The translations under genes were made by a program, and so were the position numbers. DNA of 64,000 nt from Desulfosporosinus sp. (GTDB lineage Bacteria; Campylobacterota; Campylobacteria; Campylobacterales; Arcobacteraceae), in assembly GCA_020719775.1 (NCBI GenBank), contig DYPS01000001.1:1-64000 (forward strand). Direction: 5' to 3'. Under the pieces are notes generated by a model that worked only from the letters and a program-made list of their open reading frames with translations, was not told where the DNA came from and did no database searches. Positions 1 to 7,546 of this stretch are shown here, one piece after another. Each line of letters begins with the position of its first letter. The first letter of the stretch is position 1.

Positions 1-1254
1 AAATTTGCTTGGGTAAATGTTTGTAATCCATATCAAGATAGTGCTAGTGCATCTCACTGGATAAAAGCAGCTAGAGAGATGGATAACTTCATCGTAACTT
101 CAGATGGATACCCAGGAATCTCTGCAAAAGTTTCCGATCTTATCTTGCCATCAGCTATGATCTATGAAAAATGGGGTGGATATGGAAATGCTGAAAGACG
201 AACACAACTTTGGAGACAACAAGTTCTACCTGTAGGGGATGCGATGAGTGATACATGGCAGTGGATTGAGCTTTCAAAAAGATTTACAGTTAAAGATGTT
301 TGGGGTGAACAACCGCTTCGTGGGAAAGATGCAAATGGAAATCCAAACAAACTTCCAAGTGTAATAGAAAAAGCAAAAGCTATGGGATACAACGAAAATA
401 CGACTATGTATGAAATTTTATTTGCAAATAAAAGAGCAAAAAGTTATCAGCTTGATCAAAAAGATCCAACGCAAAGAGGATATGATAACTCTGAAGGATA
501 TGGAGATAGTAGAAATGTAGTTGGAAGTGATGGTCAAGTATTTAAAGGTTATGGTTTCTTTATCCAAAAATATCTTTTTGAAGAGTATGCAGATTTCGGT
601 AGAGGACATGCGCACGACTTGGCACCATTTGATGTGTATCATAAAGTAAGAGGACTTAAATGGCCAGTTGTTGATGGAAAAGAGACACAATGGAGATTTA
701 ATGCAAAATATGACCCATATGCTAAAAAATATGGTGCAGCTACAGGTCATACAGAATTTGCATTTTATGGAACTCTTGCAAAAGAATTACCATTTGGAAA
801 TCTTACTGGGGTGACAAATAAAACAAAAACTGCTTTAAAAAATAAAGCTAAGATTTTTGCAAGACCATATATGGATCCACCGGAAATGCCAGATGCTAAA
901 TATCCAGTTTGGCTTTGTACAGGAAGAGTTCTTGAACATTGGCATAGTGGAACAATGACTATGAGGGTACCTGAACTTTATCGTGCAGTTCCAGAAGCAC
1001 TTTGTTATATGCATCCAAAAGATGCCGATACTTATGGTGTAAAACAAGGGGAACTTTGTTGGGTAGAATCACGAAGAGGAAAAGTAAAAGCAAGGGTTGA
1101 AACAAGAGGAAGAAATAGACCATCTCGTGGACTTGTATTTGTACCATGGTTTGATGAAAAAGTATTTATTAATAAAGTATGTCTTGATGCAACTTGCCCA
1201 CAATCTGGTCAAACAGATTATAAAAAATGTGCCGTTAAAATATACAAAGCATAA
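1..1254 (+). CDS. napA: Periplasmic nitrate reductase catalytic subunit NapA, C-terminal part
   Basis: The reading frame is open from the first base, so the gene is truncated by the window edge and about 417 C-terminal residues are present. NapA carries Mo-bis-MGD and a [4Fe-4S] cluster and reduces nitrate to nitrite in the periplasm; those N-terminal elements lie outside the window. The visible part has the molybdopterin-oxidoreductase stretch [20 protein letters not shown] (identified in families as MGD-binding) and the C-terminal dinucleotide-binding region around [19 protein letters not shown]. It is followed 30 bp later by napG, then the rest of a classical epsilonproteobacterial nap operon. 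Identity is very secure from sequence and context together. Confidence 0.97.
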
Positions 1255-1284
1255 TTTTAATAATAAAAATATAAAGATAAGAAG

Positions 1285-2076
1285 ATGAGTGAATCAATAA
1301 ACGAAAGAAGAAGATTCTTTTTAACAATCGCAAGAGCAACAGGATTAGCTGCTCTTGGTGGACTTATTTGGAGTGCTTATGTGGATGAAGCAACAGCCAA
1401 TAGATTGTTACTTCGACCACCTGGAGCTTTAAAAGAGGAAGATTTTTTAAAAACCTGTATCAAGTGTGGGATGTGTGTTGAGGCTTGTCCTTTTGATACT
1501 CTTAAACTGGCAGCTCCTGGAGATAATAAACCTGTAGGAACACCTTATTTTATACCTCGGGATATTCCTTGTTATATGTGTAAAGATATCCCTTGTGTTC
1601 CTGTGTGTCCAAGTGGCGCACTTGATATTACAAAAGTAAGCACAAATAATAAGCTTGATATCAATAAAGCAGAGATGGGAACGGCAGTGATCGATGAGAA
1701 AAACTGTATTGCTTTTTGGGGTATTCAATGTGATGCTTGTTATCGAGCTTGTCCTCTTATGGATCATGCTATTAAAATTGAATATGCTAAAAATGACAGA
1801 ACTGGAAAACATGCTTTTTTAACTCCACATATTGATAGTGATATTTGTACTGGATGTGGACTTTGTGAAAGAGCATGTGTAACAGAAAAAGCTTCAATTA
1901 TTATACTTCCAAGTGAATTAGTACTTGGAAAGGTTGGAAGTCATTATGTTAAAGGTTGGGATGAAGCAGATGAAGCAAGAGTTGCAGATGCAAAAGCTGA
2001 AACTACAACTACAAAATTAAGCAAAGAGACAGCGATTGATTCGCTTAACGATGCAGAGGGGCTATTCAATGATTAA
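1285..2076 (+). CDS. napG: NapG, MauM/NapG-type ferredoxin of nitrate reductase
   Basis: This is a 263-aa iron-sulfur protein that passes electrons from NapH (quinol side) towards NapB/NapA in the periplasm. The N-terminus has a twin-arginine-like motif ERRRFFLTI (residues 7-15) followed by a hydrophobic segment, so Tat export is expected. Four [4Fe-4S] cysteine groups are visible: CIKCGMCVEACP, a group around CYMCKDIPCVPVCP, one around CIAFWGIQCDACYRACP, and CTGCGLCERAC. The start has a modest AAG-rich ribosome site just upstream. It overlaps napH by 8 bp, which suggests translational coupling. Confidence 0.96.
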   Translation: MSESINERRRFFLTIARATGLAALGGLIWSAYVDEATANRLLLRPPGALKEEDFLKTCIKCGMCVEACPFDTLKLAAPGDNKPVGTPYFIPRDIPCYMCKDIPCVPVCPSGALDITKVSTNNKLDINKAEMGTAVIDEKNCIAFWGIQCDACYRACPLMDHAIKIEYAKNDRTGKHAFLTPHIDSDICTGCGLCERACVTEKASIIILPSELVLGKVGSHYVKGWDEADEARVADAKAETTTTKLSKETAIDSLNDAEGLFND

Positions 2077-2875
2077 AAATAAGTATTTAATTTTACGAAG
2101 ATTTACTCAAATATCTTTGATGGTACTCTATTTTGGTGCAAATGCTTGGGGTTGGAACCTTATAGTTGGGAACTTGAGTTCATCACTTATTTTAGGAGTT
2201 ATTCCAATGAGTGATCCTTATGCTGTTCTTCAAATGTTTGCTGCTGGTGCTTTAATCACAGTAGATATTTTTATTGGCGCGATTATAGTACTCTTTTTTT
2301 ATGGAATTATTGGTGGAAGGATATTTTGTAGCTGGGTATGTCCTATTAATCTAGTGACAGATGCTGCAAACTATACAAGACGAAAATTTGGATTCAATCA
2401 AATCCAAAAAAAACAACCAGCTTCAAGAAATATGCGCTATTGGGTTTTGGTGATAAGTTTGATTATCTCGTTTTTGATGGGGATTACCGCTTTTGAATTT
2501 ATTTCACCTATTTCAATGGTTCATAGAGGGATTATTTTTGGACTTGGATTTGGAGTTGCAGCGATTGTTGTTATTTTTCTTTTCGATTTATTTGTTTTAA
2601 AAAATGGTTGGTGTGGACATATTTGTCCACTTGGTGGATTTTATTCACTTGTTGGAAAGTATTCATTAATCAGAGTAAAACATGAAGAGGAAAAATGTAC
2701 TCTTTGTATGAAATGTAAAGAAGTTTGTCCTGAAAATCAGGTTCTTTTTATGGTTGGAAAATCAACAGAACAAGTTCTAAGTGGTGAATGTACAAATTGT
2801 GCAAGATGTATTGAAGTGTGTGATGATGATGCTTTAAATTTCTCTTTACGAGATTTTATAGCAAAGAAAAAATAG
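2069..2875 (+). CDS. napH: NapH, membrane quinol-oxidising ferredoxin-type protein
   Basis: This 268-aa protein is the membrane partner of NapG and oxidises menaquinol for the nitrate reductase. Four hydrophobic segments are visible. The two family CX3CP motifs are present (CSWVCP and CGHICP), and two [4Fe-4S] groups sit near the C-terminus (CTLCMKCKEVCP and CTNCARCIEVC). The start chosen is the ATG at 2069 (MIKNKYLILRR...), preceded by an AGAGGGG ribosome site inside the end of napG. A frame extension to 2036 is possible but lacks support. Confidence 0.95.
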   Translation: MIKNKYLILRRFTQISLMVLYFGANAWGWNLIVGNLSSSLILGVIPMSDPYAVLQMFAAGALITVDIFIGAIIVLFFYGIIGGRIFCSWVCPINLVTDAANYTRRKFGFNQIQKKQPASRNMRYWVLVISLIISFLMGITAFEFISPISMVHRGIIFGLGFGVAAIVVIFLFDLFVLKNGWCGHICPLGGFYSLVGKYSLIRVKHEEEKCTLCMKCKEVCPENQVLFMVGKSTEQVLSGECTNCARCIEVCDDDALNFSLRDFIAKKK

Positions 2876-2897
2876 TTAAAACTATATATTTAGGTGA

Positions 2898-2938
2898 AGC
2901 AAGAGGAACTCGTTTCTCCCTTCAGAGTTTGCTTTTTT
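2898..2938 (+). terminator. Possible intra-operon attenuator after napH
   Basis: The segments AGCA and AACTC (2898-2911, with a 5-nt bulge) can pair with GAGTT and TGCT (2925-2933). A run of six T follows (2933-2938). This has intrinsic-terminator shape but contains a bulge, so read-through into napB is likely. It may lower expression of napB and later genes relative to napAGH. Confidence 0.35.
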
Positions 2939-2983
2939 AGATGTAGCTTTTGCTATATCGTTTAAAAAAGTTATGAATAAGAA

Positions 2984-3012
2984 GTCCCTTTAAAATGGGA
3001 CATTTTAAAAGG
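2984..3012 (+). promoter_or_regulatory. Structured napB leader with possible ribosome-site masking
   Basis: GTCCC (2984-2988) can pair with GGGAC (2997-3001). Alternatively CCTTTAAAAT (starting at 2987) can pair with ATTTTAAAAGG (3002-3012), which contains the start of the napB ribosome site AAAAGGAG. The two pairings exclude each other. Whether either controls translation is unknown. Confidence 0.3.
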
Positions 3013-3020
3013 AGATAGAT

Positions 3021-3662
3021 ATGACAAAAGTATTTTCAAAAATTGGATTGAGTGCTGTGTTAGTGAGTGTATTATTTACTGTAACACTTAGTTCTGCAAA
3101 AGAGCCATCTATAAAACTTATAGATGCTGATTCAATTGGTCTTAGAAAAACAACGACGGAAGGTGAAGATAATACAACACCAGAAAAAACAAATTATTCA
3201 AAAAAAGCAGCGGGAACTAGTAAAAAAATCAAAAGAGCATTTCAAGATGCACCACCTATGATTCCACACGACACAGAGGGGATGCTACCGATTACTATCA
3301 ATGACAATCAATGTATTATGTGTCATATGCCAGCTGCTGCAAAAGAGATGGGGATGGGAGCTACACCAGTTCCAGTGTCACATCTTACAAACTTTAGACC
3401 TTATCACAAACTTGATGGTGAAGGTTCGAATGAAGAATTTACAAAAATTACAGATGATATGAATAATGATACAAAAATTGAGAAAAAAGATGTACTTGTA
3501 GGTGCAAGATTTAACTGTAGTGCTTGTCATGCTCCACAAAGTAGTGGACAATTAGTTAACAATAACTTTAAAGCAAAATTTACAGACAAAAATGGTGCTA
3601 AAAAATCAAGCTGGAATGGTAAAAAATTCACAGAAGGTCTTGATACTGTTAATGGAAAATAA
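3021..3662 (+). CDS. napB: NapB, diheme cytochrome c subunit of nitrate reductase
   Basis: This 213-aa protein donates electrons to NapA in the periplasm. It has a Sec signal peptide (hydrophobic residues about 8-26, ending near SSAKEP) and two heme c sites, CIMCH and CSACH, as expected for NapB. The pattern IPHD...LPI before the first heme site is also family-like. A strong ribosome site AAAAGGAG lies upstream. It is separated from napH by 145 bp of structured DNA and from napF by a hairpin, so it may be expressed at a different level from its neighbours. Confidence 0.96.
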   Translation: MTKVFSKIGLSAVLVSVLFTVTLSSAKEPSIKLIDADSIGLRKTTTEGEDNTTPEKTNYSKKAAGTSKKIKRAFQDAPPMIPHDTEGMLPITINDNQCIMCHMPAAAKEMGMGATPVPVSHLTNFRPYHKLDGEGSNEEFTKITDDMNNDTKIEKKDVLVGARFNCSACHAPQSSGQLVNNNFKAKFTDKNGAKKSSWNGKKFTEGLDTVNGK

Positions 3663-3674
3663 TCTTTTGAAAGT

Positions 3675-3704
3675 GGGAAAAAAAATAACTTTTTTTCCCC
3701 TTTT
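3675..3704 (+). terminator. Hairpin with T tail between napB and napF
   Basis: GGG plus eight A (3675-3685) pairs with seven T plus CCC (3690-3699) across a 4-nt loop, followed by TTTT. It looks like a weak, AT-rich intrinsic terminator inside the operon, perhaps setting a higher napB dose than napF-napD or protecting the 3' end of a processed transcript. Confidence 0.5.
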
Positions 3705-3723
3705 AAAATTACTAGAGTCATAA

Positions 3724-4224
3724 ATGGAAAGAAGAGATCTTTTTACTTACTTTTTTAAGCCAAAGCAAAAAGAAGTTAAGGAAATAATTATAAGACCTCC
3801 ATATTTTGGAGATGAATTTTCTTTTAATAAAGATTGTCAAAATTGTGAAGGAATTTGTGCCAATTTTTGTCAAGAGAAGATAATAGTAATTCAGGATGAC
3901 AAAACACCAAAAATAGATTTTAGTTTTGGTGGATGTACCTATTGCGATGAATGTGCAAAAGTTTGTCCACTTGGAGTGCTTAGTATTGAAAATAAGAGTA
4001 TTATCAAAGCAACTGTTAAGATTGAAAATGATAAATGTATGAGTTGGAATAATGTGATGTGTTTTTCTTGTAAAGATCCTTGTTTGGAAGATGCAATTAA
4101 ATTCAATGGGATTTTCCGACCTACGATTGATGAAGAAAAATGTACAAGTTGTGGTTTTTGCATAGGTGTTTGTCCAAGTCTAGCAATTACAGTTAGCGAA
4201 GTAAAAAATAACAGTAAGAAGTAA
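3724..4224 (+). CDS. napF: NapF, cytoplasmic ferredoxin-type accessory protein
   Basis: This 166-aa protein is rich in iron-sulfur ligands. The groups are CQNCEGICANFC, CTYCDECAKVCP, a looser group ending CFSCKDPC, and CTSCGFCIGVCP. It has no signal peptide, so a cytoplasmic role is expected. NapF proteins are linked to maturation of NapA before export; the exact role in this phylum is less certain. It sits in the usual nap position and is followed by a small unknown gene rather than directly by napL. Confidence 0.9.
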   Translation: MERRDLFTYFFKPKQKEVKEIIIRPPYFGDEFSFNKDCQNCEGICANFCQEKIIVIQDDKTPKIDFSFGGCTYCDECAKVCPLGVLSIENKSIIKATVKIENDKCMSWNNVMCFSCKDPCLEDAIKFNGIFRPTIDEEKCTSCGFCIGVCPSLAITVSEVKNNSKK

Positions 4225-4239
4225 AGGAGAAAAATATCT

Positions 4240-4503
4240 ATGGCAGTAGAGTTTAGAGCAAATATAGAAGAAGATTATACTGGGGGATGGTTTATTAGAT
4301 TAACAGATACTTTAGGTGACGAGTCGGTTGTATGTGAAAATATGGTAGATTTTAGTGATAAGATTGAAGACCTAGGAGCAAAATATGCAAATGATATTCA
4401 AGTACTTTGGAGTAAAAATAGTGATTTAACACCTGAACATTTTAAAGAAGTTTATCAAGCAATAGAGATGATGAAAAGTGAAATGGATGAACCGTCAATA
4501 TGA
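4240..4503 (+). CDS. Small protein of unknown function in the nap operon
   Basis: This is an 87-aa acidic soluble protein with no signal peptide or membrane segment. I do not recognise a family. It has a good ribosome site (AAAGGAGAAAAA) and its stop overlaps the napL start in an ATGA arrangement, so it is a real, co-translated operon member. Its place between napF and napL suggests a role in NapA assembly or electron transfer, but that is inference only. Confidence 0.85.
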   Translation: MAVEFRANIEEDYTGGWFIRLTDTLGDESVVCENMVDFSDKIEDLGAKYANDIQVLWSKNSDLTPEHFKEVYQAIEMMKSEMDEPSI

Positions 4504-5453
4504 AAAAAGTATTATTAATTTGTGTTATTGTTGTCTTTTCTTATGGTGTACAAACATTAAAGCCATCTAAATCATTTCATGCAAGTGGAAATGTCCAAAC
4601 TATGGTGGTTAAAGATAATCTTTTATATAGCGGAACAAGTAATGGTGCTGTTGATATTTTTAATTTGTCTACTAAGGGTAAACTCAACACAATACAACTT
4701 CCTAAGATTAAAGATTTTACAGGAGATACTATTAAAGCCAAAGTTTATTCTGTTGATTTTTTAAAAGATTCTTTATTGATAACTTCACAAGGTGAAAATG
4801 GGTATAACAATATTTTTGTATATAAAGAGAAAAAACTAGAGCAAATTATAAATACAAAAAATAAGTTATTAGTTCAAAAAGCAAATTTTATTACAGAAGA
4901 TTTGATTCTAATAGGATTGCTTAGTAATCAAGTAGGACTTTATGATATTAAAAATAAAAAACATATCTATCTTACTCAATTAAGTATGTCTTCTTTCTCT
5001 CATTTTATGGTGAGTGAAGATAAACAAACTTTTATATCAACAGATGAAAGTGGAGTAATTAGAATAGTAAACACAAAAAATGGACAGGTTCTTAAGAAAT
5101 TACCAGCGATTAATCTTGATAAAATTTATCAGTTGGATTATAAGAATAAGGTAGTATTAACTGCTGGACAAGATAGAAAATCAGTTGTATATAAAAATAA
5201 TGGAACTTATAGTTTGGATTTTGATTTCTTACTTTATAGTTGTGCACTGAATCCAAAAGGTGATATTGGGGCTGTTGCATATAATGAAAAAAATGAAGTT
5301 TTGGTTTTTGATATTAATTCAAAAAAATATCTTTTCAATTTAGTAGGACAAGAAGCAACAATGACACAAATTTTATTTATTAATGAAAATGAATTGTTAG
5401 TAAGTAGCGATAGTAATAAAATAAATTATTTTAAATTAGGAGGAAAAAAATGA
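4500..5453 (+). CDS. napL: NapL, WD40-like nitrate reductase accessory protein
   Basis: This 317-aa protein starts with a signal-like hydrophobic stretch (VLLICVIVVFSYG) and then has repeated beta-propeller-like units, for example NLLYSGTSNGAVDIFNLSTK and later TFISTDESGVIRIVNTKNG. This matches NapL, a poorly understood periplasmic protein found in nap operons of Campylobacterota. It overlaps both neighbours by 4 bp (ATGA), so translation is coupled through napL into napD. Confidence 0.85.
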   Translation: MKKVLLICVIVVFSYGVQTLKPSKSFHASGNVQTMVVKDNLLYSGTSNGAVDIFNLSTKGKLNTIQLPKIKDFTGDTIKAKVYSVDFLKDSLLITSQGENGYNNIFVYKEKKLEQIINTKNKLLVQKANFITEDLILIGLLSNQVGLYDIKNKKHIYLTQLSMSSFSHFMVSEDKQTFISTDESGVIRIVNTKNGQVLKKLPAINLDKIYQLDYKNKVVLTAGQDRKSVVYKNNGTYSLDFDFLLYSCALNPKGDIGAVAYNEKNEVLVFDINSKKYLFNLVGQEATMTQILFINENELLVSSDSNKINYFKLGGKK

Positions 5454-5833
5454 ACATTTCAAGTATTGTAGTAAAAACTGTACCAAAATATTTAGATGAA
5501 GTTGTGGAGGCTTTAAAAAATTGTTCGGTGTGTGATTATCATCTTCATGATGAGCAAGGAAGAATTATTATCACAATTGAGGGTGAAGGTGTTAAGGAAG
5601 AACTTGAAAAATTAAGAGTGATTGAAGCAATTCCTCATGTCATAAGTGCAGATATGCAAATGGCATACAGTGAAGATGAACTTGATGCTCATATGGAAGT
5701 GATTAATGATGCTGATTTAGTCCCAAAAATGTTAAATGATGATACGATTGATCCATCACAAATAATTTACAGGGGAGATCTTAAGAAAAAAGATCTTGAA
5801 AGTTTTGCTGCTGAATTCGATAAAAAAGACTAA
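5450..5833 (+). CDS. napD: NapD, Tat-signal-binding chaperone for NapA
   Basis: This 127-aa protein begins with the NapD fold sequence (SSIVVKTVPKYLDEVVEALK) and has the IEGEG region and VISADMQMAY strand of the family. NapD binds the Tat signal of pre-NapA and prevents premature export. The domain covers about residues 1-80; the remaining acidic tail is longer than in enteric NapD (about 90 aa) and resembles the longer epsilonproteobacterial forms. It ends the nap operon. Confidence 0.92.
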   Translation: MNISSIVVKTVPKYLDEVVEALKNCSVCDYHLHDEQGRIIITIEGEGVKEELEKLRVIEAIPHVISADMQMAYSEDELDAHMEVINDADLVPKMLNDDTIDPSQIIYRGDLKKKDLESFAAEFDKKD

Positions 5834-5844
5834 AGGAAAGTAAT

Positions 5845-6291
5845 ATGGAATTTAATGAAAGTGAATTTTTAATAGAAACTATTGTTCCTTCGGAAGAGCT
5901 TATTATTTCAAGAACTGATCTTAAGGGGAATATCACTTATGCAAATGAAACATTTGCAAATATAAGTGGCTATAAAGTTGATGAACTTATTGGAAAGTCA
6001 CATAATATTGTAAGGCATCCAGATATGCCAAAAATTATTTTTGAAGAGATGTGGCAGAGTCTAAAAGCTAATAATAGATGGGAAGGAATCGTTAAAAATC
6101 TTCGTAAAGATAAAGGGTATTATTGGGTAAATGCCGTAGTTAGTGGTGTTTATAAAGATAATGTTTTAGTTGAGTATAAGTCTCTACGAACACCTATTTC
6201 ATTTGAAGAGAAAGTAAAATTTCAAAAAATGTATGATGAAATGAGAAGCTTACATGGGGAAAATATTAGACAAATCATTTATAAAAATTAA
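5845..6291 (+). CDS. PAS-domain sensor protein (Aer/CetB-like)
   Basis: This 148-aa protein is essentially one PAS domain. It has the Aer-type sequence LIISRTDLKGNITYANETF and ISGYKVDELIGKSHNIVRHP, which in known proteins often binds FAD and senses redox or energy state. No output domain is present, as in the CetB-type partners of Campylobacter energy taxis. It starts 11 bp after napD with a good ribosome site (AAGGAAAG), so it may be co-transcribed with nap and report on respiratory flow; that link is inferred. Confidence 0.85.
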   Translation: MEFNESEFLIETIVPSEELIISRTDLKGNITYANETFANISGYKVDELIGKSHNIVRHPDMPKIIFEEMWQSLKANNRWEGIVKNLRKDKGYYWVNAVVSGVYKDNVLVEYKSLRTPISFEEKVKFQKMYDEMRSLHGENIRQIIYKN

Positions 6292-6309: not shown

Positions 6310-6323
6310 TTGATACATATCAA
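6310..6323. promoter_or_regulatory. Perfect FNR/DNR-type operator upstream of nnrS
   Basis: TTGAT (6310-6314), spacer ACAT, ATCAA (6319-6323): an exact match to the FNR-family consensus TTGAT-N4-ATCAA. One further C/G pair extends the symmetry. Its centre is 41.5 bp before the start expected from the downstream -10 element, which is the class II activator position. Confidence 0.8.
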
Positions 6324-6345
6324 GACAGAGAAGAGGGGATTTATA

Positions 6346-6351
6346 TACAAT
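6346..6351 (+). promoter_or_regulatory. -10 element of the nnrS promoter
   Basis: TACAAT lies 22 bp after the end of the FNR-type box, with no good -35 sequence of its own. A start about 7 bp further (near 6358) would put the box at -41.5. The leader to the ATG would be about 25 nt. Confidence 0.6.
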
Positions 6352-6382
6352 CAGCAAGTTATATTAAATTAAAGGCTTCGCT

Positions 6383-7546
6383 ATGAATTTCTCAACTTCT
6401 TATGATTTTATCCCAATCAAACCACAAAGTTGGTGGGAAAAATTCACTTCACAATCTCATCAACTTTTTTTCTCGTCTGCTATTCTTTTTGCTATTGGTA
6501 TTATGTTAGCAACTTTTATTTCACTTGTTAAAACTGTTTCATTTGATTTTACCCTTATACATGGTTTTGGACTTATATTTGGTGTTTTTGCAAATGCTTT
6601 TTTTGGCTTTTTAATTACCGTTATCCCGAAGTATACAGCAGGTATAGTTATAGATAAACAAAAGTATCTTATTCCCTGGATGATCTTTCAAATAGGATTG
6701 ATTTTTACTGTTTTTGGAGTAGAAGATATTGGAAAGCTTATTGTTGCTAGTGTTGTGTTTTATTTTAATATTATTTTTTTTATTACAATTCGAAAAGGAA
6801 AAGCTTTTGATAAGAAAGAGAGTATAGCTTTGAATTTAGTATTATTTTTAGGGGGATTTTTCCTTCTTTTGGAGGTTTTATCGGGACAAAATTTGACATT
6901 ATTAATATTCTTTGGTTACCTTCTAAGTTTGGTTTTTATTGTTGCACAAAGGATGATACCAGCATTTTATAGTGTAAATTTACAAATTATTCCTTGGGAA
7001 AAACCAAAATTTTTACAAGAAATATCAATAAGTTTATTTTTAATACTTGGGGTGATGATTCAATTTGATTTTGTTATGGGATTTAAAATTAGCTCGTTAT
7101 TTGCTATGTTATTTTTTGGATATATTATTTTTAATTTAAATATTTATAGAAAAGCACCAGCCATATTAAGTATTTTGATGATAGCATTTATATGGCTAGA
7201 AATAGGTTTTATCGTATTATTTTTAGAAGCTCTTTTGGAAGTAACAACTTTAAAATTAGCACTTCATATTTTTGCTATTGGTTTTGTTGCTAATTTACTT
7301 ATTGGATTTGGAAGTAGGGTGGTTATGGGTCATGCTGTGCCAGCTCAAAGAATTGAAGCCGACATGCTCACTAAGTATCTTTTTATCCTTACACAAATCA
7401 TAGTTATTGCGCGAGTTGTTGCATCTGTATTATTTTTGAATAATTCATCATTTTTTATGGGATTTTTACACATAAGTGCTTGGCTTTGGATAGTTTTGTT
7501 TATAGGTTGGATTGTTAGATATGGAAAAACACTTTTAAGAGTTTGA
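6383..7546 (+). CDS. nnrS: NnrS family heme/copper membrane protein
   Basis: This 387-aa protein is strongly hydrophobic, with about twelve membrane segments. Family signatures include IHGFGLIFGVFANAFFGFL with the following IPKYT, the AQRMIPAFYS motif, and LHIFAIGFVANLLIGFGSR followed by VVMGHA; the histidines in these segments are likely heme or metal ligands. NnrS proteins occur with denitrification and nitric oxide response genes and help cells withstand NO stress. The neighbouring nap operon and the FNR-type box upstream fit this. The exact reaction is not known for the family. Confidence 0.93.
   Translation: MNFSTSYDFIPIKPQSWWEKFTSQSHQLFFSSAILFAIGIMLATFISLVKTVSFDFTLIHGFGLIFGVFANAFFGFLITVIPKYTAGIVIDKQKYLIPWMIFQIGLIFTVFGVEDIGKLIVASVVFYFNIIFFITIRKGKAFDKKESIALNLVLFLGGFFLLLEVLSGQNLTLLIFFGYLLSLVFIVAQRMIPAFYSVNLQIIPWEKPKFLQEISISLFLILGVMIQFDFVMGFKISSLFAMLFFGYIIFNLNIYRKAPAILSILMIAFIWLEIGFIVLFLEALLEVTTLKLALHIFAIGFVANLLIGFGSRVVMGHAVPAQRIEADMLTKYLFILTQIIVIARVVASVLFLNNSSFFMGFLHISAWLWIVLFIGWIVRYGKTLLRV

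Follow-up and report, generated by a model that had tools for sequence, protein, structure and literature searches.

What switches on nnrS, and is this switch peculiar to the gene? This is the question raised by the 64-kb stretch of DNA analysed here (“the window”; 64,000 nucleotides), which carries an nnrS gene directly behind genes of nitrate reduction. NnrS is a membrane haem-copper protein tied to NO stress (PMC1274295). The nnrS gene of the window (6383..7546, plus strand; 387 aa) was correctly named in the original prediction, its product matching PF05940 with an E-value of 6.6e-39. The gene order is napA (3′ part)-napG-napH-napB-napF-napL-napD-PAS-box-nnrS-rmuC, with the nap genes at 79..5833 and a PAS-domain gene at 5845..6291, both on the plus strand. 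Between the PAS gene and nnrS, the original prediction placed a class II FNR-type promoter and assumed that control by nitric oxide or oxygen may be specific to nnrS, as opposed to the adjacent PAS gene.

The element in question spans positions 6310-6358 on the plus strand. It comprises an FNR/Nss-type operator, TTGATACATATCAA (6310..6323), which is read directly from the sequence and kept in relatives, and, exactly 22 nt further on, the −10 element TACAAT (6346..6351). The latter is the best among several overlapping AT-rich registers, which leaves an uncertainty of a few bases in the −10 register. The box ends 59 nt before nnrS, and TACAAT ends 31 nt before the nnrS ATG at 6383. If 6 nt are assumed between the −10 hexamer and +1, the geometry alone predicts a transcription start at 6358; with this start, as inferred from the −10 element, the box extends from −48 to −35 and is centred at −41.5, and the predicted geometry thus holds. 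The wording “no good −35” was fair, given that there is just a weak AAGACA (4/6 match, spacer 18). A palindrome of the TTGAT-N4-ATCAA type centred at −41.5 from the inferred start, exact −10 spacing and a weak or absent −35 hexamer characterize class II promoters of the CRP/FNR family. At class II promoters of Escherichia coli, FNR uses a TTGAT-N4-ATCAA box centred at −41.5, which it reads with an E-x-x-S-R helix; box sequence and centre at nnrS are like those. This kind of promoter is already known, and the nnrS site is a fresh instance of it.

Could the box nevertheless be a chance palindrome in AT-rich DNA, with nnrS owing its transcription to a standard promoter or to read-through out of nap and PAS? 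When the window was modelled by dinucleotide shuffles, perfect boxes appeared with a mean of 0.58 per 64 kb and at least once in 41% of the shuffles, and the box alone was dropped as evidence because of this expectation. The genome, examined through pattern matches and selected stretches, contains perfect boxes in 36 places versus 7 for the reversed control, and most of them lie within ORFs, which is also what chance would produce. In the window itself, there is no perfect box besides that at 6310, as had been foreseen, and none is gained when TTGAY-N4-RTCAA is allowed. The combination of box, 22 nt and TANNNT on the plus strand was found in 1% of the window shuffles, and the composite pattern TTGAY-N4-RTCAA-N22-TANNNT has 12 matches in the genome versus 1 for the reversed pattern. 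The gap is 22 in 12 of the 32 same-genome matches with gaps of 20–24 (binomial p 0.017), a preference that is modest unless one also weighs gene function and location between genes. On a wider scale, the composite pattern occurs 343 times in 37 genomes of the family (49 for the control) and 105 times in 23 genomes from other families of the order (12 for the control).

More telling against coincidence is the recurrence of box and exact spacing before nnrS genes elsewhere. Relatives were considered at an NnrS identity of at least 38%, with a box of at most one mismatch and a site within 200 nt of nnrS; on these terms, 12 of 15 other genomes with nnrS have the box at a distance of exactly 22 nt from a downstream [TC]A...T hexamer; the 15 genomes partly share a genus and are, hence, not fully independent. 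The layout arises in 0–1.3% of the shuffles of each relative’s nnrS upstream region. In relative G056, a perfect box is followed by a weak −10 hexamer, and no box was found directly before nnrS in G001 and G039. More distant nnrS genes are often preceded by TTGTN-N4-RTCAA boxes, with a gap of likewise 22 nt. The genes upstream of nnrS vary by genome—nap with an inserted stretch, a divergent napA or several unrelated genes—and in G007/STC79 the box stays by nnrS though nap-PAS is 3 kb away. Since the upstream neighbours differ between genomes in this way, the box travels with nnrS. A close relation is “Arcobacteraceae bacterium STC_79”, with an NnrS identity of 73%.

The second line of evidence against chance comes from the denitrification operons of the same genome. 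Exact-geometry sites precede nnrS, napA, norC, nosZ, a cytochrome c-nirJ-nirF operon, a YgbA_NO gene, a DUF2249 gene and one 178-aa gene. The norC operon promoter consists of TTGACCATGGTCAA with TATAAT, and the ATG of nosZ (PF18764) follows its box at about 68 nt, while the cytochrome c-nirJ-nirF operon and a divergent Glycos_trans_3-like gene have one shared box. The YgbA_NO gene (PF11756; L099 2796-3179, minus strand), beside a mobA-like gene, follows TTGATCACAGTCAA-N22-TATAAT, and a further site fronts a gene that resembles DUF2249 below the Pfam cut-off, together with a 410-aa membrane protein that belongs to no Pfam family (L103 2470-4140). The 178-aa gene, which has no Pfam match, has its box about 55 nt upstream (L106 223-829); by eye, its sequence is FmdE-like. 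A second nnrS (PF05940, E 1.2e-69) sits in an operon with an ABC transporter, and its promoter carries TTGATATAGATCAA, then TATAAT at 23 nt. Three of the 12 exact matches (C36, C123:9250 and C170) lie inside an ORF or are without a suitable gene downstream. The 225 nt upstream of nirS contain no box of the nnrS-type layout, and the nor promoter may drive nirS transcription.

Almost all denitrification operons of this genome, like the nnrS genes of the relatives, are preceded by this switch at an unchanged spacing, which makes it apparent from the sequence that the nnrS site belongs to a whole control circuit and is not peculiar to nnrS. Given this recurrence, a chance origin of the box is highly improbable, and it is very likely that the DNA before nnrS genuinely serves as a switch by which an FNR-type activator protein turns the gene on.

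With the circuit in view, the predicted specificity for nnrS falls, and so does the contrast drawn with the PAS gene. The window starts at the beginning of contig C14, within napA, the 5′ part of which closes contig C25; there, the napA promoter carries the same motif (L047 3775-3816). The joining of both contigs is supported by relative G007, which carries the whole nap-PAS-nnrS set on a single contig: regulator B (discussed below) is divergent from napA-G-H-B-F-L-D-PAS, and nnrS follows 3 kb past PAS. The overlap of napL and napD and the gap of 11 nt between napD and the PAS gene make the latter look like the end of the nap operon. As the last gene of nap, an operon with a box of its own beyond the window, the PAS gene lies outside the control of the box at 6310. 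In the search for a terminator between PAS and nnrS none was found, and nap read-through may, therefore, additionally transcribe nnrS, a point shared with the chance explanation.

Which protein would read the box? The original prediction had called for a genome search for CRP/FNR regulators, and this search yielded two, and only two, CRP-type HTH proteins. Regulator A (212 aa; L048 3833-4471) is encoded just upstream of the nor operon, and regulator B (217 aa; L047 3016-3669) divergently from napA, where its neighbours also include moeA/mobB-like genes and one for a PilJ-type sensor-domain protein. Both combine the cNMP-type domain PF00027 with the Crp HTH PF13545, which, together with the linkage to the nap and nor clusters, fits regulators of the Nss type. 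Like E. coli FNR, both have an E-x-x-S-R recognition helix, ETISR in A and ETLSR in B, kept in the homologues of each and invariant among the regulator B homologues read; the B homologue of G001 was left out of the helix and cysteine comparison. Regulator B is widespread in the family, mostly at 50–71% identity, whereas close relatives of A are rare. A box is also present in the promoter region of regulator B itself (L047 3745-3788, minus strand), and the exact 22-nt layout precedes regulator B in the relatives G001, G003, G005, G006 and G007, which suggests that B is autoregulated. Taken together, the conservation of box and spacing, the same layout at other denitrification genes and the two E-x-x-S-R regulators strongly support, at the level of sequence, a class II promoter for an FNR-type activator at nnrS.

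It is a different matter whether a genuine FNR, whose iron-sulphur cluster is oxygen-labile, acts here, in which case the promoter would report oxygen. Although a TTGAT-N4-ATCAA box at −41.5 is what textbooks show for FNR, the genome search returned only the two CRP-type HTH regulators, and, unlike E. coli FNR, neither of these nor any of the homologues examined carries the clustered iron-sulphur cysteines (CX2C-X3-7-C). Furthermore, Campylobacterota lack an FNR orthologue according to a review (PMC6682613). Control by oxygen through FNR itself is, hence, very unlikely; of the earlier reading, the promoter class and the regulator family stand, while the specificity for nnrS does not and an oxygen signal through FNR is improbable. 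As a separate observation, nearly all of the B homologues examined (L137-L162) share cysteines 92 and 139 of B, outside of any iron-sulphur motif; a redox or NO site at these positions is possible.

The two-regulator arrangement matches that of NssA and NssB in Wolinella succinogenes and Nitrosophilus labii, with one Crp/Fnr gene by nap, one by nor, and the same box. W. succinogenes uses NssA, NssB and NssC to respond to nitrate, NO and N2O, which thereby control the nitrogen-oxide reductases (PMC6682613); according to the same source, butzleri is without a CRP/FNR homologue. In N. labii, the Crp/Fnr gene at nap is 44.8% identical to NssA and that at nor 50% to NssB, and the first base of the TTGA-N6-TCAA box lies at −49 for napA and at −48 for norE and nosB (PMC11539149), a layout exactly matched by the box at −48 to −35 before nnrS. 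In the present genome, B is NssA-like and A NssB-like by gene position. In Proteobacteria, NO acts through the FNR-like activators of the DNR/NnrR regulons to turn on nir, nor, nos and nnrS (PMC1274295); the box analysed here differs from the NnrR site, TTGcg-N4-cgCAA, and A and B match solved DNR structures weakly (3dkw, E 5.6e-7 and 6.4e-6).

The comparison with N. labii raises a further alternative, namely that the box serves repression or a dual role, with, for example, the nap-linked regulator acting negatively there; in that organism, the nap-linked Crp/Fnr gene and nosZ are reported to be negatively related (PMC11539149). We give this little credence considering that the fixed −41.5 position and the weak or absent −35 are the arrangement of an activator.

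Our preferred reading, to which we assign a probability of about 0.88, is that 6310-6358 is a class II promoter at which an activator of the Nss/DNR kind switches nnrS on in response to nitrogen oxides, and that it is one copy of a regulon-wide layout. A dimeric CRP/FNR-family protein, for which B (by napA) and A (by the nor operon) are both candidates, would bind TTGAY-N4-RTCAA centred at −41.5 and contact RNA polymerase, thereby substituting for a good −35. The trigger for nnrS transcription would be nitrogen oxides derived from nitrate (nitrate, nitrite or NO), and the same arrangement would serve nap, nir, nor, nos, the second nnrS operon and the YgbA_NO gene. Induction of nnrS together with an NO-producing pathway makes sense given the link between NnrS and NO stress.

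In the literature searched, no description of nnrS as a regulatory target in Campylobacterota was found, and, unlike here, nnrS is unmentioned as a target in the N. labii account (PMC11539149). We tentatively propose, at somewhat less than even odds, that both nnrS copies are part of the core of an ancestral Nss regulon of the Arcobacteraceae, with a near-invariant promoter layout and the same box being read by a nap-linked nitrate-type and a nor-linked NO-type sensor, and that YgbA_NO, DUF2249 with its membrane partner and the Pfam-less gene are included. Candidate targets can be found by a simple pattern owing to the fixed layout, and genes of unknown role are thereby placed in the nitrogen-oxide response.

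A minor observation concerns the assembly itself. Contigs C13, C155 and C174 (G000; L020, L022-L025, L027) are open only if TAA and TAG are translated as glutamine; for C13, the longest frame is 69 aa by table 11 versus at least 708 by table 6. These contigs encode eukaryotic-type cNMP-binding and MCM-like proteins and are ciliate nuclear DNA in the bin, perhaps from a ciliate associate.
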